DNA of 64,000 bases from Ptychodera flava (taxonomy: Eukaryota; Hemichordata; Enteropneusta; Ptychoderidae), in NCBI RefSeq assembly GCF_041260155.1, contig NC_091940.1, positions 25,534,370 through 25,598,369 on the forward strand, given 5' to 3'. Position numbers and translations under genes: made by a program. The notes beneath the pieces are model-generated. The model worked only from the letters and a program-made list of their open reading frames with translations, made no database searches and was not told where the DNA came from. Positions 7,789 through 63,754 of this stretch are shown piece after piece (the first letter of the stretch is position 1; each line of letters opens with the position of its first letter).

Positions 7789-10700
7789 CTACTTGGTTGC
7801 CCACTTCATGTCATCAGATCTTGGTTTGGAACCAGTAGCTTTCTCAATAAGCCACTCAGCACCCCTCCAGAAATTGATGCTTTCGAGGGGGTAGTTAAGC
7901 CAGCCGGTGGTTATGCAGTAGTAACTCTCGTGCGGGGAGACGTGATGGATACGGTGATGCTGTCGCGGAAGAATGATGTGCCAGTCCTGGAGGAAGGTCA
8001 CCCACTTTGGCAGTCCGAAGTAGGTGTGCGACCACTTGTGGAACTGATTCGTCAGGGTGACAAAGATCACCAGGGCCACCAGGAAACAGTCAAAACTATA
8101 GTTCTCCTGCAACTGTTCTGGGCTTTGTGTCATGTATTTGTATGTCAGCCACACTAATCCAGGTAGAGTCGCTGCACAGTTGTCGCCGTTGACTTCAATA
8201 AAATCGTGTCTGGTGATGGATGTTGGATCAATGTGATGTTCACGGAATGGACGAATAAAACCCTGTGGAGAAAAGAAAGGCTTCAGTAAGTTGATCGATC
8301 ATGATCAGAAATGAGGTTACAAGACTGTCCCTGAGTTAAACAAAAACAGTCAAAGCTTTACAATTAACATGTGTTTGAAGCAACTCATTCTGATAACTCT
8401 ATCCACATTATCATTGGTATTTCTCACAATGCATTAAAAAGATCTGGAAAGAAGCCTTCTTTCAAAGGGTTTGAAATCAAGTGTTATCCGAAGTGGATAC
8501 ATTTGCTCCTTTCAATCACAGCTTATGCAACAAAGATGAGTTAATAATTCAACCACCGTCCCTCCATTTTGTGGAGGGACCGTGATTCAACATAGGTTAA
8601 CTCATCATTAAAACTGACAAACATGTTTCTATTAACATGGTATTGCATTGGTCGAAGGGCTGAGAATAGAATTTCAAAACAAAGAACTTGTACTTCAGAA
8701 GCTGAATAACAATGGAGGTTATACACAAAAAAATCAGACTTAACATTCATTTCAGCTTTTCTTAATACCTATAATTACAGAATTACAAACAACAGTTTTC
8801 AATTTTGCTGCACAAGAAAGTGAGATGTTAAGTACGATCAATGTAATTGATACTCACTGCACCAACGACAGGCATGTCCACAGAGCCCCACGTATCTGCT
8901 CCCCAGTGAACTAAACCTGAAGCAAGGTCTGCTGCCAAGATGCCAAGAACTGCAAAGACAAGGCAGAAAGATACAAGTAACCAAATGTGCAAATAAAAAC
9001 ACTGAACTTAATAGAGTCTGAGATGTCTTAAACTACCATTTTTTTATTACATGTGAGTCAGTAGATGACTGCCATAAATTTTCAGAGCCATGAGGTGATT
9101 GGGCATATCACACAATCAAAGAGAGACAAAAGAAAATCAGTGAGATCAAAGTACATCAATCAAATAAGCAATATTAATACATGTACTTTGGCTGCCTCTT
9201 TACATGCATTTTTAGCCTTTGATTATGACGTTTCTTTTCAAGCCACACTATTTTTCAGTATTGCTACAAGCTCCTGAACCAGGAATATTATAACAAAGTT
9301 AAATACAAAAAATAAATTTAGACAAGTATAAATAAAAATTTAATAAAATGTTGATTATAATATATATCTACACCAACTATAAAAGCTAGTCATGAGTCTG
9401 GACTGAGCATTTTTTTTTAATTTTGCATTCAAAAAATTATTTGTTAAATAAATTGAACTGATGAACATGCTGACAGAGTAATCAACAGGGTTTGACATTC
9501 ACTTCTTCTACAGTCAGACATTTAAAGAAAGAGGTGGCCATGTAGCATCTGAAATATATGCTTATCACCTAATGGCCGCTCAAAACAACGGCAAATGTCA
9601 GTCAATAGGTAAGCATGATATCATACATGATTAAAACCAAGTCAGCATTTGTTGACATGGAAAACCACAACAAACACAGCTTTTAATTTGACCCTTCATA
9701 TTCTTGATGTTCTAATTTTAACGATCTTCACAACTAGGAAATTGGAATATACACTAAATTCACCTTGGCATTCAAGGACTTTCAGGGACCCTTTAAGGAA
9801 CTATCAAGGATTTTCTGAGGTTAAAAATGCCATTTTCAAGATATGATTTTTTCATTATATCATTTTTATGTATTATTTTACATAATACTTTCACAATATC
9901 ACAACTGATCATCTAAATTATGGCTGGATTATCAGTTTTCCAAGACTTTCCAGGACTCAACTTCATTTTCAAGGACCTTTCAAGGACTGTCCAGGAGGCA
10001 TTAAATGTTACGACTTTCCACGAGGATGCATACCTACTAAGGTTTCTACAGTTCATGAAACCTTTGCATGCATGGCAACAACATGAATATAGACAGTGAT
10101 AGGATACGACTCCTAGAAATGTTAGCCCAAACAGTTGGCATTTCAATCTGCAGAAGAATATTACCAAAATTTATCAAATGACAAAAAATCTTCCTTGGCA
10201 TATCTTTGGATTAATCTGTTGTGCTGTTCTCGGAGAAAAATACAGTATGAAGAAAGATGCGCTGTTGAAGAATCACTTATCAATGATCCTTTGCTGTCTC
10301 TGTGATACTTACTTGTTGCGGGTAAAATAGCGCCTATATTGTCCAACCTGAAGTGGACTCCCATTTGGAAAAACACATAACAAAGAAGGACTATGTAGAC
10401 AGCTACACAAATCACTTCCTGTGTTCGTTTTCCTGAAAAAAACAAAACACCAGTGTGATATGAAATTTCCGACATTAAACTGTTAATCATTTATGTAACA
10501 CATGTAGGCTAGCTCATCGCATGCCATATCAGAAATGTTTTGGGAAATATTTACCAAACAGTATCTGTAATAATTTCTCTTCCTCAATCTGAGCACAGAA
10601 TGACAGTGATCTGAATTTGTACTTGCACTATCATTTACCCAATATCATTATCTCTTATAATTTCAAAAAAATCATGGACTACAGTCACCACTTTCATAAT

Positions 10701-12028: not shown

Positions 12029-15000
12029 ATGATGAGTTCACAACTGACAAAATATCTCGTTTTGAGGCGATGTTTCCACCCAAAAGACATTGCAAGTCGT
12101 TGGTTCGACTGTGTAAATGTGACAGCCAGTTGCACACTTGTCAGGAAATACTCGACGAAGCGAAAGAAGACGAAAAGGAAACTGACCGAGAAGCAGCTGG
12201 TATGTAAACTCCGTAATGTAAACATAACTGCAGAGGTGGGAAAGAGGTGTTAAGTGCGGGTCCGGTAATCCAAAGGTACATACATTCGTTTATAGTGTGT
12301 GTAATAAACAATAGATTCATTTACGATCAGAAGTAACTGATAAAGTAGTCCCTTCCTGGCCCCGCTACTGTCTGTGATGGAGATCAAATTGACAGTGTTT
12401 TCATTCTGTGGCGAAACAGTAACAATAATAATAGGTTCTCCAGCTCGTTACATGACAGCCCCAGTAACTTAGCTCTCTCTATTTTACCCGCATGAAGTTT
12501 GGTATATTTTACTCAATTATTTTATTCCTCTCGATATTACCTGAACAACAAAGTATTCGTCCTCAGCTTACAACATGTGGACATATCCTGCATTCTGCTA
12601 ATCAACAAAGCCTGTTGCAAGTTGTTTACAAGTAATATTGAAAACAATTAAAATTATCATGTCTGAAGTTGAATTCAGTTGTCAACAATAACAAGTGGTC
12701 AACAATAACAACTGGCTAACAACATATATTTAAGCAATATACCACACCCAGTGACAGTATACCACGAGATTTTGACCAGTTCACAACATATGTGCACGAG
12801 CGATAGCAAGTGCACATGTGAAGTGATAGGAAAGGTCAAAATTTAGTGGTATTCCTGATGCTGAGGTGGTTTCTTGCTATTACATCATAATATTGAATTG
12901 AAATTCTGGCATGAAATACACAAAGGGAATTTTTCCTTAGCTGAAAGCTCGTGCCCAGCCTGTTCTAACTGCACATGTGCTGTATTGTGCATATAGCACA
13001 GTTATTTTCATGTCTCGACCAATCAGATCACAGTATTGGTGTTTGACCATGCTTGAATAGCTGTACCATGGTTTGTTGAAAAAAATGCAAACACAGTAGA
13101 GTAACTCTGATGCAGAGCATGAATTCATCAAGAAACAGCAATCTATACAAAACTGAACAATAATATTGAAAAACCTGTCAGAAGCTACACACATGGGAGC
13201 TTGCATCACATCACAGCAACAACAGCCAACATGTCAGGGATGTTGGGTGAACACTCTACAGGAACCCTTGGGGAGAACCATTTGATTTTAGGGGTGGGGT
13301 TGGATGACACATACTTTCTTCTCACTTCCCATTTTAAATGATTTTGAAAAGTATGCTTCATTGAGAGAGGAGGTAGCATTTTTGTACAACTTTCCACTGA
13401 TTATGTCCTCAGCTGTACAGAATAATATGATGGAAAATAGGGAGACCAGTTGCACCTGTTTTATGAAACAAATGGATATTGATTTTTTCCAAATACAAAA
13501 GATTAAAGAAATTTACATGCTGACTTTTTCAGAGAATGACCCCTTCATTTTCTCATAAGTTGCTTCCCAAAAGTATGGCATTTGTAGTACACACAGAATG
13601 CAGAATGTGACTTTATGGTCATTTAACAGTTTCTTTGAAATTTATACTGAAATATCGGAACATACTTTTAATGAATATAATTAATCAATTATCTTGAGAC
13701 TTCACATTATCGCTTTTATGCAGAGCTAAAAAAGTTATAAGAAAACTAACGTTTGTTGGTACAAATCACTGAAATCAAACTGAATAGTGGGTAAATTGTT
13801 GTACACTGTCGTATTACTTTTTTTCTACGGTTCTCCCCTCACAGAAAAAAGTAATACGATAGCATAAAAGACCAACCTATCTCTACATCGGATATTAATC
13901 AGATTGCAGTTGTAGCTGTTATTGTTGAACACCGCAATTTTTTTTGTTGAAGATAACAAGATACTCCTTCATTTTTAATACCAGAGTAGACATTTCATAG
14001 ACTGGAGACGTGTTACTGTAACTGGCGGCACAGGTGGAGATGGCTGTGCGTCAATGCTGCGTTCCTCAAGAAGCCACTTTGGATACCCAGATGGAGGCAA
14101 CGGTGGACACGGAGGTCATGTCATTTTTAAAGGTGAGGAGAAATGGAATTCTGTGATGCTACTGGGAACAAATTTTAAGGTAAACACAAGACAATTGCAA
14201 AGCATGTTGCCTGACGTATAGTACAGGGCAACGTGTGACACAACTGTCAGAGTGCATACCTTTCAGTATTTTGATAACAAACTTACTACCATATATACAT
14301 CTCACATTCACAACTTGGGTGCTTAATTGGTTGTGTTGTGGCTATCTTCTGATCAGAACAATTTTTCTCTCAATTTCAAATGCAAGGATGGATTATGTAT
14401 GGAACATTCAAAATGCAAGACAAATCCTAACAATCATTTAGTGGGTCCCTTGCCACTGTTCAATAATAAAAAGCAGAGGCATTTGCAAATTTGGCACTCA
14501 GTGCTTGGGATGCCTTGAAACAGCCAGTGATAAGGAACGTGTATTCCATGCAGCCTTGTAATGTTTTATTCACCACCAGGAATAGTATTTTAGTAAATAG
14601 GTACAAACTTTGTTACCATACTTAAACTCATCAGACTGTATTAATACTCACAAAGAGTGTCTGAAGTCGTATCCCAAGTTTGATTTCAGTTTAATATGTA
14701 AAGATGGTTTAATATATGTAAATTAATACCTTGGGTGTGTATAACCTCTCACAAGATTCTTTGATATATAAATCATAATGTAAATTCATTTGACTCTAGT
14801 CATTACAAAAAGACTGTGCTCTCTGGAAAAAAAGCATGTACGATGTACTACCATTCTCTCGATCAAAAGTTAGGATCTTGCCTCAATGTTTTGCTGTATA
14901 TCTGGTACGGTTGCAAAAGTGATATATGACCTGTGGAAAAGTATACACAGCCTCTCCGCAAGGGCACCGTGAAAAGTAGAACGTCCCATTGACTCTTTAA

Positions 15001-18000
15001 CTTATGTTATTTCACTGAATAAGAATCCAGTCCTTTAATGCAGTGATGTTTGTGTGATGGTTTAAGTTCATCATAATGCTGATTTTCCTTACAGCTGAAA
15101 AGAAGATAATTTCATTGGAGTCCGTAAGACATCGGTACATGGGTGATGACGGTGGTAAAGGCGGCAAACAAAATTGCGACGGCAAGAATGCCAAACCTAC
15201 CATTGTCAAAGTAAGCGTGTACTTGGTAATTGTGGCGTTTAGTGTTAACACAATGGCACATTATTACGCCTGAAACAAAATTAATGTGTCAGAAGGGAAC
15301 GTCTGAGATTATATGTTTGCTTATTTGCTGGAAACTGAAAATAATGCATGGTTGTGCATAAAATAGAACAAATTATATTACGTGAAGAAAAGTTAAAAAC
15401 AGACAGTTAAATTTCTTTGATATGGTGCCTTATATGTTAGATTTTCAGGTCCAAGTTGAATCAAAGCTTTCAGACTGTTACGTACAGTTATCTGTTTTGT
15501 ACATTAATTGACATTTTTATGTGCAGTGGGAATGTATTTTTACAATTTCTGTTCAATGTTCAATGTTTTCTTGGTAATTGTTCTGTATACTTGCAAAATG
15601 TTGTCATGTTCAGCCTAGAAATAGCATTTTGTAAATCTTTAACATAGTAAAGACAATAAGTATTGCAACAGACATTGATTTGCTACTATTTATTAATTTG
15701 ATGATGAAGTAGTCAATCACTACACATGAACAGGAATTGAATATTTTGTATCTACTTTACAATTTGTGTCATTTATGTTATCCTTCTCATTGTTTAGGTT
15801 CCTGTTGGAACCATGGTGAAAGAGGACGGCGTTGTTCTGACTGATTTGAAAACTGAAGGTGATCAGGTAAATGAGACACTTGAGTTGAAAATTCTGGTTA
15901 GGAAGAAAATCATTTCGTATAAAACTTATTCCGACCTGTTGACCATATTGACAGTTCTACCACAGGGAAGCTCACTAATCCTGCCAGAATGCTGAACTTG
16001 CCAAGGTACATTTGTGTCATTCACATCTGCATAATTCACATCAGGAAGCAGCAACATTCTCAAGATGTCTGTAATGTGAGATCAGTTGCTCTTTAGATAT
16101 ACCACATTACAACAAAAGAAAGACCTTAAAAAATCTTCATTAAAAATATTGAACAGTAGTGGTCAGCTGTATGGAAAGCAGTAGTCAATAACTGATTTTC
16201 ATTTGATGGCCAAATGAAAGAAGTGTACCACTAAAGCTGTCTATAGCTAACTAGTGTTCCCGTTGGGAACATTACTGACAAGCCTCTTTTACCATATGCA
16301 GATATATGCAAATTGGTAATAACCAAGTACATCATAATTTAAAATAGCTCATGGTCATTCCGTTTTATAGAGGGAGACCATAAATAAAGTGAAGCGACCA
16401 TAAATAGCCGGATGAAGCAATGACCTGCTTGGCTCATCAGCCACCCCCCGCCCCCAACCATCATCACCACCACCACCTCTTCCCCCGCCTCCGTCCCCCA
16501 CCTCCCATGCTACCTATACCTTGGTATTTACTGATGTATTATGCTGATAACCATATAACATGCCATTGCATGTATATGTGTGGTATTTACCCATAGTTCA
16601 TAGCAGCACATGGAGGAACCAGCGGCAAAGGCAACTCTTTCTTTGTATCCAATGAGAACAAGTCACCAATGCATGCCACAAAGGGGTCACCTGGACAACA
16701 AAGATCATTGGATGTTGAACTTCGAATCATGGCCCACACAGGACTGGTGAGTTCAACGACTGACTTTTAAAATTGGATTGTAAACACAGCTCATATCAGA
16801 GTAAAATAGGTTGGTTTATTAATTAATTAATGTTTTTAGTGATGACCATGTAAAGTAACATCTACACAGGAGAAATTACCTATAAAATACTATTGATTCA
16901 GGTAGCAATATTTGAGACCAAAATAGAGCTCTTCACTATTACTTGAGCTCCAACCAAGGTGACATGTGCAAATCAAATGAAGGGCCAATTTGAATTATTT
17001 GGATGATGAACTCAGGGAGAAAGCAGGTATATGTGATATTAGTCAAGCTAAAGAATATCTTTTAAAGAACATCTTAAACATTTGTGTTGATATCTGAAAT
17101 TTTGTGTTCATTGCTACTAAGGTATTCCAAAGTTAACCCTGCAACTGAAATAGCAAACTGTCTATCAGCAGAGTATGTTTACAGAAGAGAGAAATTTCAT
17201 CCATACTTATTTAGGGTCTTGATTGATTCACAGGTTGAAAATAAAATTGAATGGTTCATTGTCTTGGTGAATGGATTGTTTTAATACTTCATTTTCATTT
17301 TAGTTCATTGGTTCACCAATAGCCTGAAAGACTTCAGATTTGTTTTGTAATCTCTGTCAGATTGGCTTTCCAAACGCTGGAAAATCTTCTCTACTGAGAG
17401 CGTTGTCACGAGCAAAACCTGCAGTGGCTGCATATCCGTTTACAACACTCAATCCGCATGTTGGTATTGTGGAATATGATGATTTGGAACAAATAGCAGG
17501 TGGGTAAAGAATTGTCGCAAGACATTTAAGACGGACCTCTGTGCATATTTCATCTGTTGTACCACACATCTTGCAATGAAAGTCACAAATGACGTGAATT
17601 GTGTTCATGACAATCCTCACTCCCTATCATTTCAAAATGTTTAATTGTTTTGCTTTCATCAGAGTAAGAGAATTTGTTACGGTGACTGAATCATGCAAGT
17701 TCATTGCCTATGTATTATAAAAATATATCTGTGATGTAATGTGTGGTGTATACTGAAAATTATGCCATCAGAGTATAATTTACAAATTATGTCTTCAGCA
17801 GGATTTGAGTTCATAGTGATAATTTCCCACTCACATAAGTCATGTCAACCTATTAGTTAGTTCATGACATTAAAATAGCCCAACGTAATCTACATAAAAA
17901 CAAATGGAGATTTTGGTAGCTCACTCTTCATCCTAATTATGTAACTTGTGCAATGTGAGATGTGCCAAATATGTGAATGCGTCGTTTGTAAAGTCACCAG

Positions 18001-18711
18001 TTAAGCTCTAATTTTTTTTGAAATCCTGTTATATATCAAAACCAAAGACAGAGAGCATCTGTACGGAAAAACATAGATACAACATAAACATATGGAACGC
18101 TTGGGATATTTACTCAAGAAATAATTTTCAGTGATGAGAGAGAGATGACAATAGCTTTTCAATTTCACTCAGTACCATGTAGATTGAAAGATCCGTCGCT
18201 CGAGGGCACTCTGTACCCCCAGTAAGGGGGTGAGGCATAGACAGCGCCCTTAAGTGATGGATCTTTCAATTTGAGTACCATGCAACTGTAATTATCCGGA
18301 GTCTCTTCAATATCTTTTTACTTTCCAGTGGCTGACATTCCTGGTCTCATACGTGGCGCGCATCTTAACCGTGGACTTGGCCATTCATTCCTGAGGCACA
18401 TAGAACGCTGCCAGTGTCTGCTTTATGTGATAGACTTGTCGGTGGGGGAACCCTGGACTCAACTCTCTGATTTGAAATTTGAACTTGAACAGTACCAGGA
18501 GGGTCTGTCAGAAAGACCCCACACAGTCCTCGGGAACAAGATTGATCTGCCGGAAGCTGCGGAGAATTTGAAAAGACTCGTGGAGCATGTAATGCTGCCA
18601 GTAATGCCAATATCAGCTCAGTGTGGAACTAATATCGCAGAGTTAAAAGAGCAACTGAGGGAACTGTACGATGCAAATGTTGCCAATACAGTGGAAGATG
18701 TGGAAAGCTGA
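12029..18711 (+). CDS. MTG2: Mitochondrial ribosome-associated GTPase 2 (Obg family)
   Basis: MTG2 (GTPBP5, ObgH1) is a mitochondrial GTPase that acts in late assembly of the large mitoribosomal subunit. Seven exons join in phase: 12029-12199, 13985-14132, 15095-15210, 15798-15866, 16597-16746, 17361-17499 and 18329-18711, giving 391 aa (human about 406). Two consecutive ATG codons (12029, 12032) could start it. The first exon is rich in basic and hydroxyl residues, as in a mitochondrial presequence. Exons 2-5 encode the glycine-rich Obg fold ([39 protein letters not shown]). The G domain has G1 GFPNAGKSS (220-228), G2 in YPFTT, G3 DIPG (267-270), G4 NKID (334-337) and G5 SAQ (360-362). The protein ends soon after G5. 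No defect is seen. Confidence 0.95.
13809..13859. repeat. Short hairpin in MTG2 intron 1
   Basis: TCGTATTACTTTTTT and its near-exact complement AAAAAAGTAATACGA flank a short C-rich loop, a stem of about 15-18 bp with one slipped T. No function is inferred. Confidence 0.5.
16441..16507. repeat. C-rich, low-complexity tract in MTG2 intron 4
   Basis: A run dominated by C, with CCA and CCCC blocks, about 90 bp before exon 5 (16597). It is simple sequence and could form unusual DNA structure. No coding content. Confidence 0.6.
18180..18273. mobile_element. 94 bp MITE in MTG2 intron 6 with 9 bp direct flanks
   Basis: ATTGAAAGATCC near the left end is matched by GGATCTTTCAAT near the right end, and the pairing continues imperfectly inward to AGGGC/GCCCT. 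The block is flanked by the direct repeat AGTACCATG (18171-18179 and 18274-18282), which reads as a target-site duplication. It is about 55 bp from the splice acceptor of exon 7. Family not assigned. Confidence 0.65.
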
Positions 18712-20282: not shown

Positions 20283-23200
20283 CTACTTGAAGTGAAATTT
20301 GATTTTCACAAGATATCGCATTTTAATCTGATTTGTGTTGTATACAATATACTCATTGTAATTCAGGGTGTAGCCCTGTGGGTTGGTAACTCCAGTGTTG
20401 ATGCCTTTGCCAAGCGGAACCACTGTACCATCAGACCTGTGGAATATCAACAATGAAAGAAAAAAATTTCTAATAACTTGCTTGAATGCACCTTGGAACA
20501 CTTTTTGAACCAAAACTTTTACAATACTTTTTAGGATTGCTTGTGTGGAGCCAATTTGTAGCCTGTTGAGAAAATAAATTATATTTTTGCTCTTTTGTTT
20601 TTGTAAAAATTGGAAAACTTATTTTTCCCAATGTAGCTAACACTTGGTCTAGCAGCCATTCAGTGACCTGCCCCATTGCACAATTGCATAAACAACTCTT
20701 TTGGCTGTCCTGCATTTATTGCTTCAGTTACCTCATATTTCAAAACGAGAAATTACTCATGAGAATAGTCACAGGTGTTTCCCTCTAGAGTTTAAGAATG
20801 TTGCTGCATTCATAGGGAATTCTGGTGACATCATGATGTGGTGTCATACATTTTGTATCCATGGCTGAGGAAAGCTGGTCCTTCCACCAGCAAATCATCC
20901 TTGACACAAGCATTGCTCCATGTCATGTGCTCATCATGTCAACAAGTATTAACCCTTTGAGCGCTGTAATTTTTTCCCGCCCAAATTTTAGTGCAAAATT
21001 TTACCAATTTTTATGAATTTTTCTGTAATATTTTTATAATTTTGGACCAAATGGACATGACATTTCATTGGCTACAGTTTTTTCTAAAAATTTTGGCAAA
21101 AATCTGAGAAAAATTGACTGGGGTTTATTATATAAAGGGGACAAAAATAGACTTTGGCGCTCAAAGGGTTAATTTGTTCTTATTTGAAGAGTGCTATCTT
21201 TTGTGGATACCATTCATACTCACGTAGTGTGATTTTTGGAAGGATCTGGTGCAATCCGTCCCAATCCCTTGACACTGTGCTTCCCTGCAGGCAGCTTGTC
21301 AGCCTTGTAATCAGCATTGAGTAGTTCATTTGCTGTACCAAGTGATACCTGTAAAATTCATGTACAGACAACATGGGCATGACAAGTGTTATCTTATGAC
21401 AATAAAACTCATGTCCTACTTGTGCGGAATTTCCTTAACACAAAAAATTTTAGTAGATCAATTTGACCAAGTCAGGTCAGTCTTTTAAAATAATGTTGTC
21501 TGTTGAACAAAACTGCATTTTCCCTATGTTTTAAAGTACTGGCCCACAGTATAACAACATACATGGTACTCAAAATCATTTACATCCAAACTGTCTGAAT
21601 GCAAGTTTCATCACTTTGTCAATTTTCCAATCAGGACAACTTTTACACATACAGGATGAGCTATATATATATAAATCAGTTGAATATATCTCCTCGGTTT
21701 CATCAGCAGAATTCCTGACTGCCACTGAAGATTGGCTACATATTCACCAAAAATGGCCAAACATTTGAAGAAAATGGTATAATTTTCATCGCTATATACC
21801 TACTCATATTCTCAAACACCATGTACAGTGAAACTGCCATTACAATAATCTGACTTACCTCACTGAGAAGGCAAAGTCCGACATCTTTAGACTTGGTTGC
21901 AAAGCAATAGTTGGCTGATTTTGATGACATGTCAGCGAAGTACACACCTTTCCCAAACTGAAGGCAAAATAAATACATCGTGTCAGCTTATAATGCAACA
22001 CCGAGCATTACCTTGTGAGTTCCAGCTACACTCCAATCAGTTTGCTTGGAGCCCGACAAGTGGAATGGACTGGAAAGTTTGGCTGCCAACAGATGGTGCA
22101 AAATAATTCTCTTTTTCTGCAGCATGGTATGGTTTGATTATCAAATATAGGAGACTAAGAAATGCAGATGGTACAATGACCTGCTGTAACATGACACAGT
22201 GAAAAGTAATATCCACCTGTCAAAATGAGTGATTTATCTGCTCTGAGTGCCAACATCTACACAACTTGATACTGACTGTGTCATTTCAATATCACATTAC
22301 ATACACAGAATTAACCTCTAGTCAAACACAATATTGGCTCAGCCTGTTGAAGCAAAATGTGATGCTTTTTCATGGAAAAGGTGAATAGCCATTGCATTTT
22401 CTTTTTGTTCCACTGCACAGCACAGTGAGTTCAAGATTAAGAGTACCAAAAATTACGAATACAGGTAAAGCAATCATCCTATGTGAAAAGGAAGGTAATA
22501 GGAAAACCACAGCTTACCAGCCATGATGTATGATGCATCTTCTGTGTATCAGGTAAAAATAATACATGGTATTTCCAACATAGGGGGCGCACTTTCAATA
22601 TACTTACCATGTAACCAGTCACTGGAGCTTCAGGTGGAGCAATTCGCAGGCCTTTACTAAGAATTCCCATGTAATTCGTCAGACGTGATCCATGCCATAA
22701 CAACATTCTAAATAAATAAAATACAAACAAAATACATGGGGTTTTCAGCTGTGCCAAAATTTTTGCCAAAATCTGAATGAAGACAAATGGGTGGAGAACA
22801 AGGACCAAATTTCCAGCCAAATATAGAACTACAACAAATGAAATTCTACATCAAGTACTTAGATTGATGTGACGATGACTGCACCCGGTCAGTTTGTTGC
22901 TGTTTGGGATGCAGATTTCTTTGCAAGGCGATTGGGTAACATGTAGGTGAACGGTTATTGTGTAGGTGATTGGGTACCGTGTAGGTGACTAGGTACCATG
23001 TAGGTAAATGGGTACCATGTAGGTGAATGGGTACCGTGTAGGTGACTGGGTACAGTGAAGGTGACTGGGTACCATATAGGTGATTGAATATACCGGTAGT
23101 GTAGATGAATGATTAACATGTAAGGTGACTGGGTACCAATTTAGGTGACTGAGTACTGTGTAGGATGGATACAATTGTGGGTGAATGGGTACCACAGACG

Positions 23201-29200: not shown

Positions 29201-32200
29201 TGGTTAATCATCCAACCACATGCAAAACAAGCCCTGTAATTAAACCCCTGGATACATAAAATGAGCTTGAGCTGATGTAATATTTATATTTGGGCACAAA
29301 CAGTGACATGTTGCTCGCCAATTTAATCTTATAATTAAATTGGCTAGCAACATTTATATTTGGGCACAAACAGTGACATGTTGCTAGCCAATTTAATCTT
29401 ATAATAACTGAACTTTGGCCAACAGTTTGGCAAATTGTGCCCAATCGTAACGTAACTATCATAAGTTTTTCTTATTTAACTAAAATAAACAAGTCTCCTG
29501 AATAATATACCTACTTTTAGCTTCTGATTTTGAAGTTGAGGGTTTTACATCACCATCATCGTCATCGTCATCATCATCATCCACCTTCTCCTCTTTGACT
29601 TTCTTTTTTGTCTTCTGACTTTTCTTACCGCTGGTTTTCTCTGTGTTAGTGGACGCTGAGCCATTAGACTCTGATACCTTAGCTTTAGCCGGTTTGTGAT
29701 CTAGAGAGAAATGGATTGCACACATGACAGCAAATTATACGATAATTATCTGACAATGATGTATATTTAAATTCATGTCATTTAAGTTATTTATAAATTA
29801 CTTTTTCTTATTTTTTATTCGGCAAATCACCAGGCACAATGGTCGATGACAAAATAAACTCTGACAAAACCACACACACAAACAAACATTAGCAGAGTGA
29901 TAATTCAAAATCAACAAGAAATCTACACGGGGGAAATAAAAAGGTGAGAAAAAAATATCGGGATTCATTTCTGGGTGCACAATATCATTCAAACATAGGA
30001 TTAGTCCAGAAACCTTACATGCTGTCAGATCCAGTTGATGTTTTCAAACTTGTTAAATCCACTGGTTACTGACTGTACTACTGTTGATGGGGTCGACTTC
30101 CAGTTCTCAGCAATATAAAGACATTTCAATTCAACAAAACTGAAACAGTGGAATTAAATTAATTCAAACCAACTCACCAACTTTGATTCTTTCAACAGTT
30201 CTTGTAACCTTGGTAACATCATTCAACTGATCCATCTTCTTTAAATCGATGGTGTATGATCTGTGGAATGCGACAATACCAACACTCTCTTCTCCAGCCT
30301 GGTATGACATTTCTATGGTTATTGTATCATTCGCTGTGTACGGATTCCACCGGTTCTTTTCATCCTGCCACTGCCATACATAGTCTGTAGCATGCAAGAA
30401 TATCTCTGGCAATTATTATTCACAATTTTATTTGTTTACTTCTGATCAATCATCCAACAGGCACAAGCCCAATGCTACGAAGATTAAAATGCCTCACTAT
30501 TATAAAAGTTCACAACTTTATGCTTGAGTCTAAAACTGTAACATTGAATTCATCATCCTGAACTTAGAGGGTCTTTAAATCACCATCCTCTGATAGGGAG
30601 TACTATACCCAAACCAATGCCAAAGAATGCAAAGCAAAGAGGGTTTTGATCGTTCAGCAAACAGAAATAGCACTATGACATGACGACTGTCATCAATTCA
30701 TACTAGCATGTCCAACCTTTACGTCTATTTTACCATGTTTGTTGCAATTAAACAAGTCATCGTTGATGACACAGTCCCCACTTGTTAATGGGTATTTTGA
30801 TTACAGGTCCTCAGAGAGGATAGAGTCCTCTTCATTAGGTCTGTGATAAAAAATACTTTTGAATGAATTCACTTGATACCTGTCTGAGTTATGGTTCAGG
30901 ACATGAAAAAAATTGTAACAAAATGGTCGCACAGTGGCCATATTGGATCGCATCACAAAACAAATTGATGTGCATAGCTATGACATTGGTCAATGTCCTT
31001 GTACCAGCTTTGAATAAAATTGGTCGAAACATGCGGATATGCCTGAGAAATGGCTCTGTACATGAAAAAATCGTAATAAAATGGCCGCCTGGCGGCCATA
31101 TTGGATCGTATCACAAAACAGATTGACGTGCATATGTATGACATAGGTCAATGTCCTTGTACCAACTTTGAATAAAATCAGTTGAGATATGCCTGAGTTA
31201 TGGCTCTGTACATGAAAAAATCGTAATAAAATGGCCGCACAACGGCCATTTTGGATCGTATCACAAAACAAATTGCCGTGCACAGCTATGACATTTGTCA
31301 ATAAGCTTGTACCAACTTTGAATAAAATCGGTTGAAACGTGCCTGAGTAATAGCTCTGTACATGAAAAAATCTTAATAAAATGGCCGCCTGGCGGCCATA
31401 TTGGATCGTATCACAAAACAAATTGACGTGCATATCTATGACATTGGTCAATGTCCTTGTACCAACTCTGAATAAAATCGGTCAAAACATGCCTGAGTAA
31501 TGGCTCTGTACATGAAAAAATCGTAATAAAATGGCCGCCTGGTGGCCATATTGGATCGTATCACAAAACAAATTGATGTGCATATCTATGACATTGGTCA
31601 ATGTCTTTGTACCAACTCTGAATAAAATCGGTCGAAACATGCCTGAGTTATGGCTCTGTACATGAAAAAATCTTAATAAAATGGCCGCCTGGCGGCCATA
31701 TTGGATCGTATCACAAAACAAATTGACGTGCATATCTATGACATTGGTCAATGTCCTTGTACCAACTTTGAATAAAATCGGTTGGAACATGCCTGAGTTA
31801 TGGCTCTGTACATGAAAAAATCGTAATAAAATGGCCGCCTGGCGGCCATATTGGATCGTATCACAAAACAAATTGACGTGCATCTGTATGACATATGAAG
31901 TAATCCTTGTACCAAGTTTGAATGAAATCGCTCCAGGCATCTCAGAGATATCTGCGTGAACGGACGGACGCACGGACGCACGGACGGACGCACGCACGCA
32001 CGCACGGACATGACCAAACCTACAAGTCCCCCGGACGGTGTCCGTGGGGACAATTAAAATCAATCCTCTTTCTATCAGGCTCCATAGACAAACCATAGAA
32101 ATAAACACAACTTGGGAGAAAGGAATAAGTTACGATTTGTGGAAATATATCTCGGCTTCAACTGAAGATGCTGGCATTCAAGGCATAAAATGAGAAAGTT

Positions 32201-35085
32201 ATTTGGGCATTCAAATAGAGTGATTCCAAATTTCTGACTGTATTTCAATCAAGTTTAAAAGCAATTTATTTGCTCTGTGTAGTCAAACTTAGAGGGCAAT
32301 GGTACGTTGGCAGCATCATGAAAATTTTGAATCGTTGGTTTAGCTAATCTTGCAGCTGATTTTCTCTAAAATATCCATAAAGAAGCCTGTTCACATCTAG
32401 GCCCAGGGCCGGCCAGAACTAATCCGGCAGAATGTGAGAAGATAAGCTAATCTTTTGTCCGCGTTCACATTACGTTCAACGCTGTCCTAGCCTAGACCAT
32501 TTGGTAGCGTCTAGCCGACCTTTGACCTTATACAGGTCACAATTTCCCTTTGCCATAACTGTTAATAAAATTTAATTTAAAACTGACAGTCAAGCTAAAT
32601 GCCATTAAATTGGAAAGCACCAAGAAATTACCTTTTATCATAAGATTGTACCTATTGGACCTCCCTAGGTGGTTTCTTTTGAACCATAATTGTGTACTTA
32701 AAGGGTCTTCATTCATGACATCACATAAGATGACCCAGATTTGACCTTTCAGAAAACCTCAAATTTTTCTCCTTTTTCCTTGTATTCTGACTCTGTTTGT
32801 GAAAGTTTCCTTTGAAATAATGGTTTTTACTATCAAACTGAGTAATTGCAGGCCAAACTTTGATTCAAGCAAAGTAGATAAAACTGACTAAAAAGGACGA
32901 CCGGTACGCGGAACTCACAGACGCAAAGCCAAGCCTCAGTGTATTCATCATTCCTCCATGATGTACTGTAGCACGGTCCGTCTGAGGTACTGAGGGACCG
33001 CGATTGCAGAATCAAACAGCAACAATGTTTGCTTCACGTACAAGGGAATTTGTAACTTTGTAGAAAGGAGAGTAAAGTGTTTCAATACATTGTAACTTTG
33101 TAGGAAGGAGGGTAAATTGTTTCAACAGCTTACAACATTTATTGTAAGCTGTAGTTTTCTGTTGAGGAGGCATGGTGACATGATTTCATGAGAAGAAAAA
33201 AACATAAGAGCTGCAAAGACGTCAATATTTTGCTATTTTGTAACCAAGTAGAACAGAGCTATTTTATCGGCCGGCCATATCTAAAGCGGTACACTCAGAG
33301 AACTAGAGAGTGGCAGAGCGTACGTACTGTGGCCTAATTGAAATTCACTTGTCTGTCGGGCTGGGAGAATGTTGTTTTCACTTGCCCGGAGTCAAAATTC
33401 ACTTGTCACGGGCGTCGGGCGGCGAGAATTTTCGAGCCCTGCACTGCATGTCAACTACAGAGGGCGTCAACTGGGACCTGAGTAGGACAAAACGCGTTCA
33501 CATACGCTGTTTACTGCTCGGCCAGAGACTTGGGTCGGCCACAAACCACCCCTCTCGACTAGGACAGAAATTGTCCGGACAGAGGCCGGCCAGAACCGTT
33601 CACACCTGTTTTTTGGTCGGCCACGAACCTGGCTAGGACAAGGGCCTAGTCTTTTTTGGCTAATGTGAACGGCCCTAAAGGAACTAGCTGACAGCAGAAA
33701 CATGGCAACTGGACATACCAAAAAAGTATTACATGCAATTCTTCATTGGAATTTAATTTTGCTATTTTTTTAATGATCAATGTAATCCACAGACTTAAAT
33801 TATGCTGAAAATGCTAAAAGCAAATACTCTTATGTTTAACTAGCAAATCGGTGAATTTAAATCTGAGTGACAATCTTCAAAACACATGAATCGAATAGCA
33901 TCACTGTGAAAATTAATAGTAAGTCATTGAATTGAAACAGGACCAAGACCAAGTACCACATGCACAGTCACTTGTGGTTCAGTACATGGTGACAGCCTCT
34001 GTGACGTGACAGGTGTTTGTCTGCTGTGTACCTAACCACAAGCGACTGTGCCATGTACAGGTATTGATACTTACAGTCACTTGCATCCTTGACAAGACAC
34101 CGGATTCGCCTTTCCCAGCCCGTTTTTGCGTTTTTCTGCACCATCTTGTCAAGCAAGATATTGAACTTCACTTTATTGACAGTCATTTCCACTTTCATTT
34201 CATCCTGGTCGTAACTGTCGTTGATCTTCTGCAGCATGTCCTCGCTGAAGGCGGTCCAAGTCTCTCCATCGTCTTCCCATTCCCAAGACAACGACAAGCT
34301 GGTTTTCGGTTTCTTGGCAACCGGTGCTGCCGCTGCTGCAGCTGTACTTGAACTTGCCGCAGCTGGGAAGAAAATCGGGGTTTTTTTTCAATTGATTCTT
34401 GATAGGAAATAATTCTTTGCATACAGCATATCACGGCCGAGAAGGAGTACGTCGAGGATGTCAAACTGGTTCTTTTAAAATATGGTCCATATCCGACTAA
34501 ATTTCAATACCACGAGTATTATATATACTTACATGCACAGTCACTCGTGATCTATTCAGCTCTTGGACTATTCGCCTATAGACGTGTGTACATAAGTACA
34601 CACATCTATAGGCGAATAGTCCAAGAGCTGAATAGATCACGAGTGACTGTGATACATGCATGTATATATATAGCTGCAGTACAGTAGCTCGAGGTTTTGC
34701 CTGGGTATTTGGGTCGGACGTTTTGCCGTCCGACCCAAATACCCAGGCAAAACCTCGAGCTATATATACAGCCTGCCGGTCGCACAAATGACGCGGCGAA
34801 GACGATTGACGTGTTGTTGTTCTGCACGGTACACCTGTGTGCTTATATGTGAAGGCATGGATATACACTATGCACTATGAACGTCTTCGTATACCGTTAC
34901 GTTTGTTGGTCACAATATCACTATCATAGCCAGGGCAACATAATTATAACTTACAGGTAAATATCAACAGGTTGGGTGAACGGTGACCCTAATTTATGGT
35001 AAATTATCGCAAAACCACCAAATTTCATTGGAATTCTGTCGTTAAAAAACTTGCATTCACCTGCTTTCCTACGTCTTGGAGGCAT
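20283..35085 (-). CDS. PARP2: PARP2-type poly(ADP-ribose) polymerase with two N-terminal WWE domains
   Basis: Predicted nuclear DNA-damage poly(ADP-ribose) polymerase. Sixteen minus-strand exons: 35061-35085, 34075-34362, 30178-30384, 29515-29700, 28699-28817, 27200-27296, 26566-26738, 25853-25939, 25148-25371, 24344-24407, 23739-23872, 23318-23442, 22608-22707, 21859-21957, 21224-21348, 20283-20436. Expected length about 735 aa (human PARP2 583). Order: basic start [11 protein letters not shown] 1 (about 33-103, [12 protein letters not shown]); WWE 2 (about 105-173, [13 protein letters not shown]); Lys-rich and Asp-rich linker (174-235); WGR (about 240-360, [20 protein letters not shown] then WGR); regulatory domain (about 395-530, [16 protein letters not shown]); catalytic domain (about 535-735). 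Catalytic H-Y-E residues are present in LLWHGSR, SSKSANY and YNEYIVYN. All junctions keep phase, but exon 11 (23739-23872) lacks one base for frame continuity near 23828-23830, a T run; a sequence error or allele is likely. Introns hold several mobile elements. The WWE domains are the oddity, since vertebrate PARP2 has none. Confidence 0.92.
20953..21168. mobile_element. piggyBac-like MITE, copy B
   Basis: The ends CCCTTTGAGCGC and GCGCTCAAAGGG form a 12 bp perfect inverted repeat flanked on both sides by TTAA (20949-20952 and 21169-21172), the piggyBac target duplication. At 216 bp it has no coding capacity. It sits in the last intron of PARP2, 56 bp from exon 15, about 0.9 kb from copy A. 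Confidence 0.8.
22926..23235. repeat. Minisatellite of about 19 bp in PARP2 intron 12
   Basis: Diverged tandem units of the form GGTACCATGTAGGTGAATG, with variants GGTGACTGGGTACC and GGTAAATGGGTACC, run for about 300 bp. The array starts about 80 bp past the exon 12 donor (minus strand). Long frames through it are artefacts. Confidence 0.75.
26793..27040. mobile_element. Short pearl-like element (one core unit) in PARP2 intron 6
   Basis: It starts CAAGTCAT and contains AGTCCCCACTTG, then one core with CATATTGGATTG, CACAAAACAAAT and TCCTTGTACCAA, then a GGACAGAC-type microsatellite, ending TCCGTGGGGA. The same start, core and end occur in the 1.3 kb element at 30753-32050, so the two are family members. 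The eight flanking bases on each side are similar but not identical. Confidence 0.7.
29283..29405. repeat. 70 bp direct duplication with inverted centre, PARP2 intron 4
   Basis: About 53 bp starting TTTATATTTGGGCACAAACA at 29283 repeats at 29353 with one visible mismatch. The 17 bp between carries the reverse complement of the unit's inner part (AAATTGGCTAGCAACA against TGTTGCTAGCCAATTT). It sits about 110 bp upstream, in plus coordinates, of the linker exon. Confidence 0.7.
30753..32050. mobile_element. Long pearl-like element with seven 150 bp core repeats, PARP2 intron 2
   Basis: The element starts CAAGTCATCGTTGATGAC, which contains the hairpin GTCATC/GATGAC, and ends TCCGTGGGGA. The 8 bp flank CAATTAAA occurs on both sides (30745-30752 and 32051-32058). 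Inside, the core starting near CTCTGTACATGAAAAAATC repeats at about 30893, 31052, 31202, 31352, 31502, 31652 and 31802, spaced exactly 150 bp from the second on. It is followed by an ACGG/ACGC tetranucleotide tract at about 31961-32010. A tandem 150-160 bp core followed by an ACGG-type microsatellite is how pearl elements of molluscs and echinoderms, linked to Helentrons, are described. No transposition protein is seen; the open frames rich in Arg-Pro-Ser-Val are artefacts. Confidence 0.75.
33958..34058. repeat. Imperfect hairpin just inside PARP2 intron 2
   Basis: Left arm near ACATGCACAGTCACTTGTGG pairs with CCACAAGCGACTGTGCCATGT on the right with a few mismatches. It begins about 16 bp past the exon 2 donor on the minus strand. 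Its outer motif CACAGTCACT is shared with the hairpin at 34536, so the two may be related. Confidence 0.6.
34536..34651. repeat. Near-perfect hairpin, 55 bp arms, PARP2 intron 1
   Basis: Arms 34536-34590 and 34597-34651 are reverse complements with one mismatch by eye, around a 6 bp loop. Arms this long and alike point to a recent fold-back or to selection for pairing. Confidence 0.85.
34686..34761. repeat. Perfect hairpin, 35 bp arms, PARP2 intron 1
   Basis: Arms 34686-34720 and 34727-34761 match exactly in reverse complement around a 6 bp loop, 34 bp after the 55 bp hairpin. The alternating TATATATA next to both sides (about 34663 and 34762) extends the similarity. Confidence 0.85.
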
Positions 35086-35250
35086 AGCTACCGATCAGGG
35101 TACAGAACTGCTATGTCAGCCTTTGACAGTTCTGGCTATTTAAAGCCACCGTGAGTGAGAGAGATAATGTACGACAGAAGCAAGTATGAACTTGTTCACC
35201 AGCTGATTCATTCCCGCCAAATATTCGTCATCGCTTTCTGAGTACAACGT
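35086..35250 (-). promoter_or_regulatory. PARP2 5' flank with an E2F-like site
   Basis: TTCCCGCC at 35211-35218 matches the E2F consensus and lies about 126 bp upstream of the PARP2 ATG. A growth-linked factor at a DNA-repair gene would be unsurprising. No TATA box or transcription start is visible. Sequence match only. Confidence 0.3.
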
Positions 35251-40323: not shown

Positions 40324-41431
40324 TCACGGGCCATCTACCCTGTAATATTCAAACTCAGCGTCTGGCAGAAGTTCAGAAGAAGTCAGCAGTTCGTCAAAGA
40401 GGAAACAAGCAGACTCCGTTGAAATCAGGTTATCGACATTCTGGTAATGGAAACTTTGACAGCCGTCGTTTGCGGTGCATGCGTGCGCACAGCCAACGAC
40501 GGTCGAGGCAGTCGTCTGTATCAAGGGCGTGACAGCCGGTCCAACCATTCCGTCGCCTTCCTTAAAAAATAGGCCACTACGAAATTTGACAGTTCGCTTT
40601 ATTTTGTGTGGTGTTCCTGAAGCAAAGGATAAAATTGGGTGATTAGCCATACATCACGTAAAGGGAACACTGAAATTTATGAAAGGGAATAGTGACTGTA
40701 TTTGATATTACGGTACAACAACTGCAACTTGACAATGTATTTAATCATTTTTGACCAAGAAAGTACAGTTTCTTCTATGTTAATGTAAATCTAATCTTGA
40801 GAACACAATGCACAATAAGTGATGTTATTTATCACTTGTCAAATGGATGCTAGTCTTGATTAAAATTTGTTGTCAACAATAACATACAGTAGAACTAAGC
40901 GAAATGGACTGACTGTGAGGGCAAGGTGAATACCAGGCATTTCGAAACGATTTTTGGAGTAGAATACTGTATGTTTTATAAACAGAAATGAAACAATGGA
41001 AACAACATCAAAACTTAGGGCTTTCAAATGTAATTTTTACTTCAGCAAAAGGCAAAAATTGTAAACAACACGTCATGTTGTGACATCCTATGTGCATGTT
41101 AGAGGCCATGTAGAATAATATCTACTTAAAACACTTTAAAGTTCCAGTTTACAAGTATGGCCAAACAGCGATTCGATAAATTGTGCATGGATGAGAGATT
41201 CATTATCTGAGGATATTTAAACGAAAATAAATGTCGAGGGGGACAGTCGCTTGTGATAAATACTTCACACAGACACACACACAGATACATATACACACAC
41301 AAAGAAACAGAATTACACTCACCTGCTGTGCAAGTGAATTCACTTTCACTGTAACCCCACCAGGTATCGTCACAATTACACACATCATTGTCACAGAATC
41401 CGTGTACGCAGCCAGCGTCTGAGAGACAGAC

Positions 41432-47400: not shown

Positions 47401-50400
47401 GAAAACGATTTCCCTTTAGCCGAAAACCTGAAATTTCATGAATTTTCATTTTAAAAAAGTAAAAATATCAGTTAAATTATGAAGATGTTCAGATTTGGAG
47501 AAGTAATTTTGCTTTAGTTGCCTTTGCATATTCCATTGCTGATATTTATGAGGAAAACATTAATTTTAAAGCATTTGGCAGGAAATCCCATACTTTCAAG
47601 TATGGTGAAAAAAATCAACACTGATCAATGGTGTAAACATTTTTCCAAATTACAAATGTAAAACTGATCACTAATTTGTTTAAAATTAAAATTCAAAAAT
47701 TTCAAAGAAATGTTGATATCAGTACTCAATCACAGAAAAATTCACAACGAAAAAATCACAATGTGACATTTATGTTTTTAAACCAATTTTTGTGTGTTAT
47801 CTTACACTTAATGGGTTTTGTACTGTGAAGCCTATAATTGTTGCATAAAAAGCATCGATGGCAATTATGAAATAGATTTACAGGAATTTCCACTAAAACA
47901 CATGGGACTTCTTTCGTTTATGTGGTCATTCAAAGTTAGTTCTCATACAAATCAAGAAATTTCTTGCAACAGAAACAACCAACCATGCAAGAAATTTCTT
48001 ACAAGGGACACACCCATCCATGCAAGAAATGTCTTGCATGGATGGGGTGTGTCCCTTGCAAGAAATTTCTTGCATGGATGGGTGTGTCCCTTGCAAGAAA
48101 TTTCTTGCATGGGTGGGTGTGTCCCCTGAAAGACATTTCTTGGACACACCCACCCATGCAAGAAATTTCTTGCAAGGGACACATCCATCCATGCAAGAAA
48201 TTTCTTGCAAGGGACACACCCATCCATGCAAGACATTTCTTGCAAGGGACACACCCATCCATGCAAGAAATTTCTTGCAGGGGACACACCCACCCATGCA
48301 AGAAATTTCTTGCAAGGGACACACCCATCCATGCAAGAAATTTCTTGCAAGAGACACACCCATCCATGCAAGAAATTTCTTGCAAAGGACACACCCACCC
48401 ATGCAAGAAATTTCTTGCAAGGGACACACCCACCCATGCAAGAAATTTCTTGCAAGGGACACACCCATCCACGCAAGAAATGTCTTGCAGGGGACACACC
48501 CACCCATGCAAGAAATTTCTTGCAAGGGACACACCCATCCATGCAAGAAATTTCTTGCAACAGACACACCCATCCATGCAAGAAATTTCTTGCAAGGGAC
48601 ACACCCATCCATGCAAGAAATTTCTTGCAAGGGACACACCCATCCATGCAAGAAATTTCTTGCAAGGGACACACCCATCCATGCAAGAAATTTCGTGCAA
48701 AGGACACAAAAAGATACACTTCATAAGCAAAATATTAAAAAAAAATCTTTTATTGTCTTGTTTATAATGAAACAATATCCTTCACAAGTTGAATGTAAAC
48801 AGAAGTATATAGTTGCACTGTGGGGTCTGGAATTATGCTTGATACATTTTTTATCAGAAAGGTTGCTAGAATTGGTCCCCAATGAAAAAATTTAACCTCA
48901 GATTTATTCTCTTGATTGATGTTTGTACTTTATTAATATTCTTCACAGTTCGTGAATATGAAGTGAACGTACAATTAGGAAAACCGCTTTTGCCTTCAGA
49001 CATGGACAAAACATTTCCTGCTATGGAAGGGACATACCCATCCATGCAAGAAACTTCCTGAATGGGTGGGTGTGTCCCTTGCAAGAAATTTCTTGCATGG
49101 ATAGGTGTGTCCTTTGCAAGAAATTTCTTGCATGGATGGGTGTGTCCCTTGCAAGAAATTTCTTGCACAGGTGGGTGTGTCTCTTGCAGGAAATTTCTTG
49201 CATGGATGGGTGTGTCCCCTGCAAGAAATTTCTTGCATAGATGGGTGTGTTCCTTGCAAGAAATTTCTTGCATGGTGGGTGTGTCCCTTGTAAGAAATTT
49301 CGTACATGGGTGGGTGTGTCCCTTGCTAGAAATTTCTTGCATGGGTGGGTGTGTCCCTTGTAAGAAATTTCGTGCATGGGTGGGTGTGTCCCTTGCTAGA
49401 AATTTCTTGCATGGGTGGGTGTGTCCCCTGCAAGAAATTTCTTGCATTGATGGGTGTGTTCCTTGCAAGAAATTTCTTGCATGGGTGGGTGTGTCCCTTG
49501 TAAGAAATTTCTTGCATGGGTGGGTGTGTCCCTTGCACGAAATTTCTTGCATGGGTGGATGTGTCCCTTGTAAGAAATTTCTTGCATGGGTGGGTGTGTC
49601 CCTTGCACGAAATTTCTTGCATGGGTGGATGTGTCCCTTGTAAAAAATTCTTGCATGGGTGGGTGTGTCCCTTGCAGGAAATTTCTTGCATGGGTGGGTG
49701 TGTCCCTTGTAAGAAATTTCTTGCATGGATAGGTGTGTCCTTTGCTAGAAATTTCTTGCATCGATGGGTGTGTCCCTTGTAAGAAATTTTTTGCATGGGA
49801 TAGGTGTGTCCTTTGCAAGAAATTTCTTGCGATGGCACACCCACCCATGCAAGAAATTTCTTGCAATTGACACACCCATCCATGCAAGAAATTTCTTGCA
49901 ACGGACATGGCTCAGAGTTGCAGGAAATTTCTTGCAAGGGTGGGTGTGTAATTTGACTTGAAAAATAACGAAATGCCTGTTGCTTGCATATTTGCACATA
50001 TTTCCATGGAAAATCATATTAAAGGATATATTATATATTAAATTTAGTTATTTCCATAAAAATATCTTAAACTATCAAGAAAGTTCAACCACTTTTGATC
50101 AAATCAGAAATTTATGGTGAAATTATCAAGTAAAGCAGAACTGAATATTATAACCAGTTATTTAAGTGGAAATATTTCAAAAAAGTGTGGTTTTCGTTAA
50201 TTGGGAAATTGTTTTCGTGCTGTTTCCATTTCTTACATTTGCACGTCTTGGTAGCTGGATCAACCGTCCAGTACGGCTTGCATTTACACACACCTGATGG
50301 ACTGCATGTTCCGCGAATACACGTCGCATCCGAGCTACATATCGCTGTAAATGAACGTTGAAGAGTCAGATGTTTTGTGAACCTGGTTGCCGATATACCT

Positions 50401-52054
50401 GACGGATTCACGAAGAGTATTATTTCGAACCCAATATTTGCTAATTTTCGCTTTGTGCCTGTAAAATTTTCGCTTTGTGATTGACATACAAATCAAAAAT
50501 AGTGGAAATCATCAAAAGTTAAGTAACTCATCTTTAAACTTTCTTGATGATGTGAACCATGAACAGTCAAAAGGGGCAAGAAAAAATTCTTCCTTTTAAC
50601 GCTACTTTTTCTCAGTCCATGTAATACCGATCAGCGACGTCATAGGTGCTTTGATATCGTTTATTTCCAAATGAATGTTTTCTGCTCATGTGCAGCAGTG
50701 GAGGGACCGTGGCAGCGTGCTCGGAAAGTTACATCTGCGTGAAAAAATGAGCACGGCATTTAAATCAAACAGTAAACGTCTCCACTTAAAAGTTCCTTTT
50801 AAGCTAACGTTAAACGATACAACATTTTTTTAATTCATTGCCATATAAAATTTATGTAATACTCTGACAAGCTCAATAAGAGATTACTATTGATTTCGAT
50901 TATGTTTGTTGGTCTGTCAGTTGTGTACTTACGTATCACTGGCCCGATCTTGCACCATACAGCCCTAGTCACACCATCACATGTGTATCTTCGCCATGTG
51001 CTTCCGTCATTCAGGGACATGTAAAAACAGTCCTTGCTATTATCCACGGGGTCCTCGCGATTGATGTTGGTGTACTGGGCCAGAGTCGAACGGTCAGAGA
51101 GTTCCACTTGTCCGTCGGTTTCAAGCGTGTTTTGACCTAACCATGGAACGTTGCTGTAGGAGAGAGTCGTGGACACAATTGTGGAAATAAATCTGTCTAA
51201 AAATTAAGAACGATGCTTCAAGCGTCTCAATCTGTACATATACGTGTCCTTTGAATGCAAATAAGCAATTATTCAAGACACTGTTGCATCATCAATAAAC
51301 AGCTGGTAAAACAGTTTCGTGGGACGTTTTCATCATCAAACTGCAGTGAAATACAAATCTGCAGCAGTGTACTGATATACATGCCTAAATTAATCTTAGC
51401 TCGTTTTCGTTGTTTTGTTCAACACAGTTTTCATTCTTTGCAACTCTGCTGTAGTAATTAAAACTGTGTAAAACAACTTAAAAACAACGAAAACGAGTTA
51501 AGCTGCAGATTTGTATTTCACTGCATCTTGATGATTGCAATCCCCGACGGAACTATTTGAGCAACTTTACATGACTCAACGGTGTATTGAATAATTTTCT
51601 ATATTTGCACAAACCGCCGATCCTTGACAGTCAAGTTATGGTGCGTAATCCAGGCCAAAATTAGCACCTAACATTTTGTCCGTGTACTGTGTACATGTAT
51701 GCATACGTTCACTTTGATGCATACTAAAATTCGGTTTCTACGCTCGGACATGTGCCCAGCAACCTTTATTAATCATTTACCCTAGCCCATTGAGGAAAAA
51801 AGGGAGCCCCAAGCAGGTGGGTGGAAGTGTCCGGCTGGTGAATGTTCGAGACAATCGCCGAAATGTATTGAATTGCCTTTTCTAGAACCTATCTGTTTTG
51901 AGTAGTATCATACCGTAACCACGGAGAGGTTCTGGACAATGAATTGCCCGCCTCCAAAATGCAGACTGAATGACTATTCAACGACAAACACTATGAGCAT
52001 GCCCTATAGCTAGCTATTTATGTAAATGAGCTATGGATCTGTCTGTCTCCCTGG

Positions 52055-52763: not shown

Positions 52764-53952
52764 AGTATACAGATGTCCTCGTGGGAAATTACAGTGCTCG
52801 ATGCTAAGCAGAGCGTTATAGATAATAACTCAAATTACTTCAAGAACAAAGTAATGAAATCTCTTACCTAAGTTTCATGCATCCTGTAATCTTCAGACAG
52901 AAGTGAAAGGATTCCTAGCAACACTCTCATTTATAAAAACATATAAATATATAACAAACATATAAATGAGAGTGTTGCTAGGAATCCTTTCACTTCTGTC
53001 AAAAGATTGCAGGAAAAATGAAACTTAAGTAACAGATTTCTCTACTTTGTATGTATGTATGTATGTATGTATGTATGTATGTATGTATGTATGTATGTAT
53101 GTATGTATGTGTGTTTTGTTATTACCGTTTTCCCAGTCATGTGTATCTAATATTGAATATTGTCTCATGAAAACGTATAAAGTATCGCCACCGTCGGCAT
53201 GTTCCAAACACAAAACGCGATGATACGTCATGAAAAAACCATAGTATGAAGAAGAAATGTTACTTTTTCCCTTCAACACCCCTTCCACCCTGGAGATATA
53301 TTCTAGACTCAGGTTGAAAGACTGAAATAAGCTGGAGCATGGTTAAAAACACCTTTCCCTTAGTTTTTCTTGTAAAATGATAGATAACTGACGATTTCCA
53401 TAAAGCATGGTGTCAACAACCTCATGCCGCCCACGCTTCTGCTATAAATGTTGCAGCTATGTTGACGTGATGCGTCTACATATCATGCATAAAATACATT
53501 GATTGTAAACAAGAAAGTTGCAAACGCCAAGTGCCGACGAGCCCCTCCCTTTCAGCAATGAATGATAAAATGTCGTTGAACCCCTCTTTCGAGGGACATG
53601 GTGTTCAAACTAAGGAACACAAACTGATAATTGTATTTTACTCACAGAGAGTTCCTTCTCGTAGCCATTGGGCTGGCTCTGCAGCATTCTCTTGGCCGAT
53701 GAGGGCGTAACCCTGACGGCAGATATATCCAGTCTCTTCACCACAGTGAGCATTGAGCCAGTGTCCGTCGTTGTCTTCCTGGACGCAGACTTTATCAGTG
53801 TCGGAAACCGGCTGGCCCGCTGCCCAAAGCGAAGGTGGGCTCAATGAATCGCCGTTGAACCAACTCCACTGGCCGCTAGACCTTTTACTGACACCAATCC
53901 ACGCAGGAGACTGTTTGTCTGCGAAAAACCGAAAGTATAGACTTTACATATG

Positions 53953-59250: not shown

Positions 59251-63754
<4,504 letters not shown>

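Follow-up and report, generated by a model that had tools for sequence, protein, structure and literature searches.

A predicted PARP2-type gene with two N-terminal WWE domains in the hemichordate Ptychodera flava

WWE domains and PARP2 in published work

PARP2 homologues bearing WWE have been reported in many non-mammalian animals, with frog and fish among the examples, in the survey of Perina et al. 2014 (PMC4245714). On birds the available text of that survey contradicts itself, a bird being named as an example of WWE-PARP2 and PARP2 yet being called lost in birds, and we therefore rely on frog and fish only. Elsewhere, in the portions of the papers available to us, Citarelli et al. 2010 placed human PARP2 in a clade with only WGR, PRD and PARP domains and assigned WWE to clades 2 and 3 (PMC2964712), and a 2005 paper ties WWE to another PARP subgroup (PMC1266365).

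In mammals, the N-terminal region of PARP2 was described by Chen et al. 2018 to bind poly(ADP-ribose) (PAR) and to be required for PARP2-dependent PARylation and branching. According to the text available from the same study, this region recognises PAR made by PARP1, whereby PARP2 reaches sites of damage, and is necessary for PAR-driven activation (PMC6089979).

The present analysis concerns a window of 64,000 nucleotides from P. flava (contig NC_091940.1, positions 25,534,370 to 25,598,369), for which an earlier note, made from the sequence alone, had described a PARP2-type polymerase with two WWE domains. The note had set this architecture against vertebrate PARP2, a contrast that holds for mammalian PARP2 but not for the vertebrates as a whole, WWE-PARP2 having been published in frog and fish (PMC4245714). 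Its statement that human WWE-bearing PARPs lack WGR agrees with the available text of two sources, which give zinc fingers, macrodomains or WWE plus PARP for them (PMC4245714, PMC11269756). Like the gene studied here, these human proteins (PARP7, 11, 12, 13 and 14) combine WWE with a PARP catalytic domain (PMC4245714; the WWE of PARP14 is from PMC11269756), but they belong to clade 3 and not to clade 1, and the available text of the survey mentions no WGR for them (PMC4245714).

The WWE-PARP2 architecture is thus already known, in print since 2014, and the gene is an ordinary one; the idea that such a fusion is unusual is corrected by the survey text (PMC4245714). The homologues described there have the same WWE domain(s) N-terminal to the WGR, regulatory and catalytic domains, a comparison made by description, as the available text does not give the number or residues of WWE per species (PMC4245714). 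In the open-licence literature text searched, no number of WWE domains was stated for WWE-PARP2, and no hemichordate, echinoderm, lancelet or mollusc was named as having it.

Gene structure and the PARP2-type body

On the minus strand of the window a model of 16 exons was assembled, with its start codon (ATG) at 35085 and a stop codon ending at 20283. Exon borders were picked by eye from the sequence and the splice signals were then checked, with GT-AG borders found for all introns (15/15). Exon 1 (35085-35061) contributes the ATG and a short basic start, MPPRRRKA, and is followed by the donor GTGAAT; an in-frame stop is located at 35097, four codons 5' of the ATG. An Ala-rich stretch, a KKPK basic patch and WWE domain 1 are encoded by exon 2 (34362-34075), and WWE domain 2 by exon 3 (30384-30178), both with AG/GT borders. 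Exon 4 (29700-29515), a Lys-rich and Asp-rich linker whose phase fits both exon 3 and exon 5, lies partly within a stretch that aligns weakly to solved PARP2 (from PARP2 residue 57 onward). The WGR domain is divided over exons 5 (28817-28699), 6 (27296-27200) and 7 (26738-26566), and the PARP regulatory (helical) domain over exons 8 (25939-25853), 9 (25371-25148), 10 (24407-24344) and 11 (23872-23739), the last with an internal frameshift. Exons 12 (23442-23318), 13 (22707-22608), 14 (21957-21859), 15 (21348-21224) and 16 (20436-20283, with the stop codon at 20285-20283) encode the PARP catalytic domain. For exons 2-4 the coordinates of the earlier note were exact, but its span of 29515..34362 omits exon 1 and the PARP body.

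Two of the introns contain repeats. Intron 1 holds two near-perfect long hairpins (34536-34651 and 34685-34762), whose arms are 56 nt (98%) and 36 nt (100%) long and whose spacers are 4 and 6 nt, respectively, and intron 2, between both WWE exons, holds about seven tandem copies of a 150-bp unit (30858-31930).

When each domain was searched by itself, exon 2 matched Pfam WWE (PF02825) with 46.6 bits (E 4.5e-12) and exon 3 with 63.6 bits (E 2.3e-17), the curated cut-off being 21.1 bits, and the matches persisted in the unspliced stop-to-stop frames (1e-11 and 4.1e-17). The rest of the gene model, searched in two parts divided at the exon 11 frameshift, matched Pfam WGR (E 1.8e-23), PARP_reg (1.7e-41) and PARP (7.2e-75). 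The Pfam search that the earlier note had proposed thus finds, as the note had read, one WWE domain in each of exons 2 and 3, and together with the PDB matches it upholds the order of two WWE, WGR, regulatory and catalytic domains of PARP2 type.

Among the best 60 of 71 PDB matches of the catalytic part, PARP2 came first (E 6.4e-93) with 313.7 bits, as compared with 263.6 bits for the best PARP1 and 110.7 for PARP3. For the part comprising the linker, WGR and helical domains the corresponding scores were 355.8 bits for PARP2, 162.7 for PARP1 and 96.8 for a WGR fragment of PARP3. Judged from PDB bit scores, and not from a tree, the body is PARP2-type, with PARP2 as a nearer match than either PARP1 or PARP3. 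Solved PARP2, presumably the human or mouse protein, has the same WGR, helical and catalytic domains and was the best PDB match for both parts searched. The His of LLWHGSR, the Tyr of GVYFADM and the Glu of NYNEYIVY align to identical residues in solved PARP2 5dsy, and we take them to be the catalytic triad. The name H-Y-E triad is used in the available text of PMC2964712. DNA-break-activated synthesis of poly(ADP-ribose), expected of PARP2 as a clade 1 DNA-repair PARP, would be a putative activity of this body. The two WWE domains of the present gene take the place of the short basic region described at the N-terminus of human PARP2 in the portions of the literature at hand (PMC4245714, PMC6089979).

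Whether the WWE exons belong to the same product as this body can be judged from the joins between them. Exons 2-5 all begin in phase 1 and hence join in phase, and no phase conflict occurs as far as exon 10; with the AG/GT borders this agrees with the earlier claim that exons 2 and 3 join in phase to a PARP2-like body. The locus could instead encode a short protein with the two WWE domains, terminating in intron 3, and separately a PARP2 without WWE that begins just upstream of exon 4. Such an arrangement would be served by a stop that is reached four codons after read-through past the exon 3 donor, by one AATAAA/ATTAAA-like site in intron 3 (at 29819), and by an in-frame ATG at 29725, eight codons before the border codon of exon 4. 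A single poly(A)-like site is, however, close to the 0.81 expected for this intron by base composition, the exon 3 donor (GTGAGT) and the pyrimidine-rich acceptor of exon 4 have matching phases, and the fused order is in print for PARP2 homologues in the survey text (PMC4245714). We consider two separate products very unlikely; alternative products at the locus are possible, but unsupported. Splicing of the WWE exons to the PARP body, as predicted from splice signals, phase and the published homologues, is the supported reading.

The joined coding length of this spliced model is 2 modulo 3, and the shift can be traced to exon 11, where the frame entering from exon 10 is closed by a stop, and the one that leads on into exon 12 is open only from a point within the exon. 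A pseudogene, that is, a copy disabled by this frameshift, would explain why exon 11 is without a single open frame and why the joined length is no multiple of three. On the other hand, PDB searches revealed close similarity to PARP2 on both sides of the shift, the 15 other exons have open frames and intact splice sites, and we judge that a single indel more often stems from an error in sequencing or assembly, so that a disabled copy appears very unlikely. Because the other 15 exons are open, the simplest reading is that the frameshift is probably a sequencing or assembly error, and a polymorphism is possible.

Several other features were observed in the window. Exons of an OBG-type GTPase are located at 13979-18708 on the plus strand, convergent with the PARP2 gene; five frames match GTP1_OBG or MMR_HSR1, one of which (15058-15270) is below the Pfam cut-off. 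A Lipid_desat domain (7792-8298, minus strand, E 2.8e-57) is, we assume, likely that of a TMEM189/PEDS1-type desaturase. Two PAN-domain frames on the minus strand (40327-40653 and 59254-59694), about 19 kb apart and near-identical by eye, possibly represent duplicated lectin-like genes, together with the C-type lectin domains located at 50838-51203 and 53641-53943. A 35-bp unit containing the palindrome TGCAAGAAATTTCTTGCA is arrayed at 47953-48708 and 49045-49901, with about 47 copies summed over 35-bp rows. A tRNA search of the sequence found none.

The WWE pockets and their likely ligand

The closest solved sequences of the two domains are the tandem WWE of DTX1 (8r5n), the WWE of TRIP12 (9bkr) and that of HUWE1 (6miw), with which they have pocket residues in common; these three proteins are ubiquitin ligases, whereas the WWE carrier here is a PARP. 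Exon 2 had its best solved match in DTX1, via the second WWE of that protein (1.2e-08), and exon 3 in the WWE of TRIP12 (7.5e-14).

The exon 2 and exon 3 domains were aligned with the WWE domains of TRIP12 and HUWE1 and with DTX1 WWE1 and WWE2, and ligand contacts were mapped from the available text of PMC11269756, the W-x-D-D stretch serving as anchor for the residue numbers. The mapping reproduced 8/8 HUWE1 and 8/8 TRIP12 residues, three of each being the anchor itself. Seven HUWE1 contact positions were compared (W1619, Y1658, Q1667, N1669, T1672, N1674 and R1676), where Q1667 is our own assignment of the conserved Gln left unnumbered in that text (PMC11269756). Six of the seven are kept in the exon 3 domain, with Val at N1674, and five in the exon 2 domain, with Phe at Y1658 and Trp at N1674. 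The same alignment gave 6/7 for TRIP12, 6/7 for DTX1 WWE2 and 5/7, the same count as for exon 2, for DTX1 WWE1, a domain that has been solved with ADP. Phe at Y1658 was seen in exon 2 only among the six domains, and would mean the loss of one phosphate contact. Most ADP-contacting WWE residues are accordingly present, and the exon 2-3 pair would be a candidate binder of ADP-ribose or PAR.

The position of RNF146 Tyr107 is occupied by Trp in both domains, and HUWE1 positions 1621-1622 read DD in exon 2 and DE in exon 3. In the alignment, the RNF146-type features, namely a Tyr at Y107 and neighbouring residues that are not acidic, are thus absent from both. In the available text of PMC11269756 the lower affinity of HUWE1 and TRIP12 for iso-ADP-ribose is ascribed to the Trp and acidic positions. 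From this likeness, the two pockets are no less likely to target terminal ADP-ribose than iso-ADP-ribose. Trp likewise occupies the Tyr107 position in DTX1, yet that text reports a preference of DTX1 for iso-ADP-ribose and potent binding of PAR, with TRIP12 binding PAR much more weakly than DTX1 (PMC11269756), and the residues by themselves therefore settle neither the target nor the strength of binding. The pockets probably favour terminal ADP-ribose or the ADP moiety, or both modes, as in HUWE1, TRIP12 and DTX1, over the iso-ADP-ribose mode of RNF146. Binding of iso-ADP-ribose, proposed in the earlier note, is plausible but not specific, in that the decisive positions resemble HUWE1, TRIP12 and DTX1 and not RNF146.

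Proposed role of the WWE pair

Taken together, the locus is with high confidence read as one WWE-PARP2 gene with a PARP2-type body, the tandem WWE of which would bring the enzyme to PAR. By analogy with the mammalian N-terminal region, we infer that the WWE pair most likely recruits PARP2 to existing poly(ADP-ribose). The pair would bind ADP-ribose units of PAR initially produced by PARP1, or else by PARP2 itself, and this contact would bring PARP2 to the damaged site and then hold the enzyme there, while WGR would sense the DNA break and release the autoinhibitory helical domain. In this respect the WWE pair may correspond, as folded domains, to the short N-terminal region found in mammalian PARP2.

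A further-reaching proposal, which we regard as unlikely, is that the ancestral animal PARP2 was a reader-writer of PAR, with the WWE pair reading chain ends or branch points, and that mammals lost the folded reader while a short basic tail kept the job. If this were true, the gene would suit the study of how PARP2 chooses its branch sites. As compared with the short mammalian region, the two candidate binding domains here could allow PAR reading to be dissected by point mutations in a defined pocket, and such a dissection would address the part played by PAR reading in PARP2 recruitment and in chain branching.
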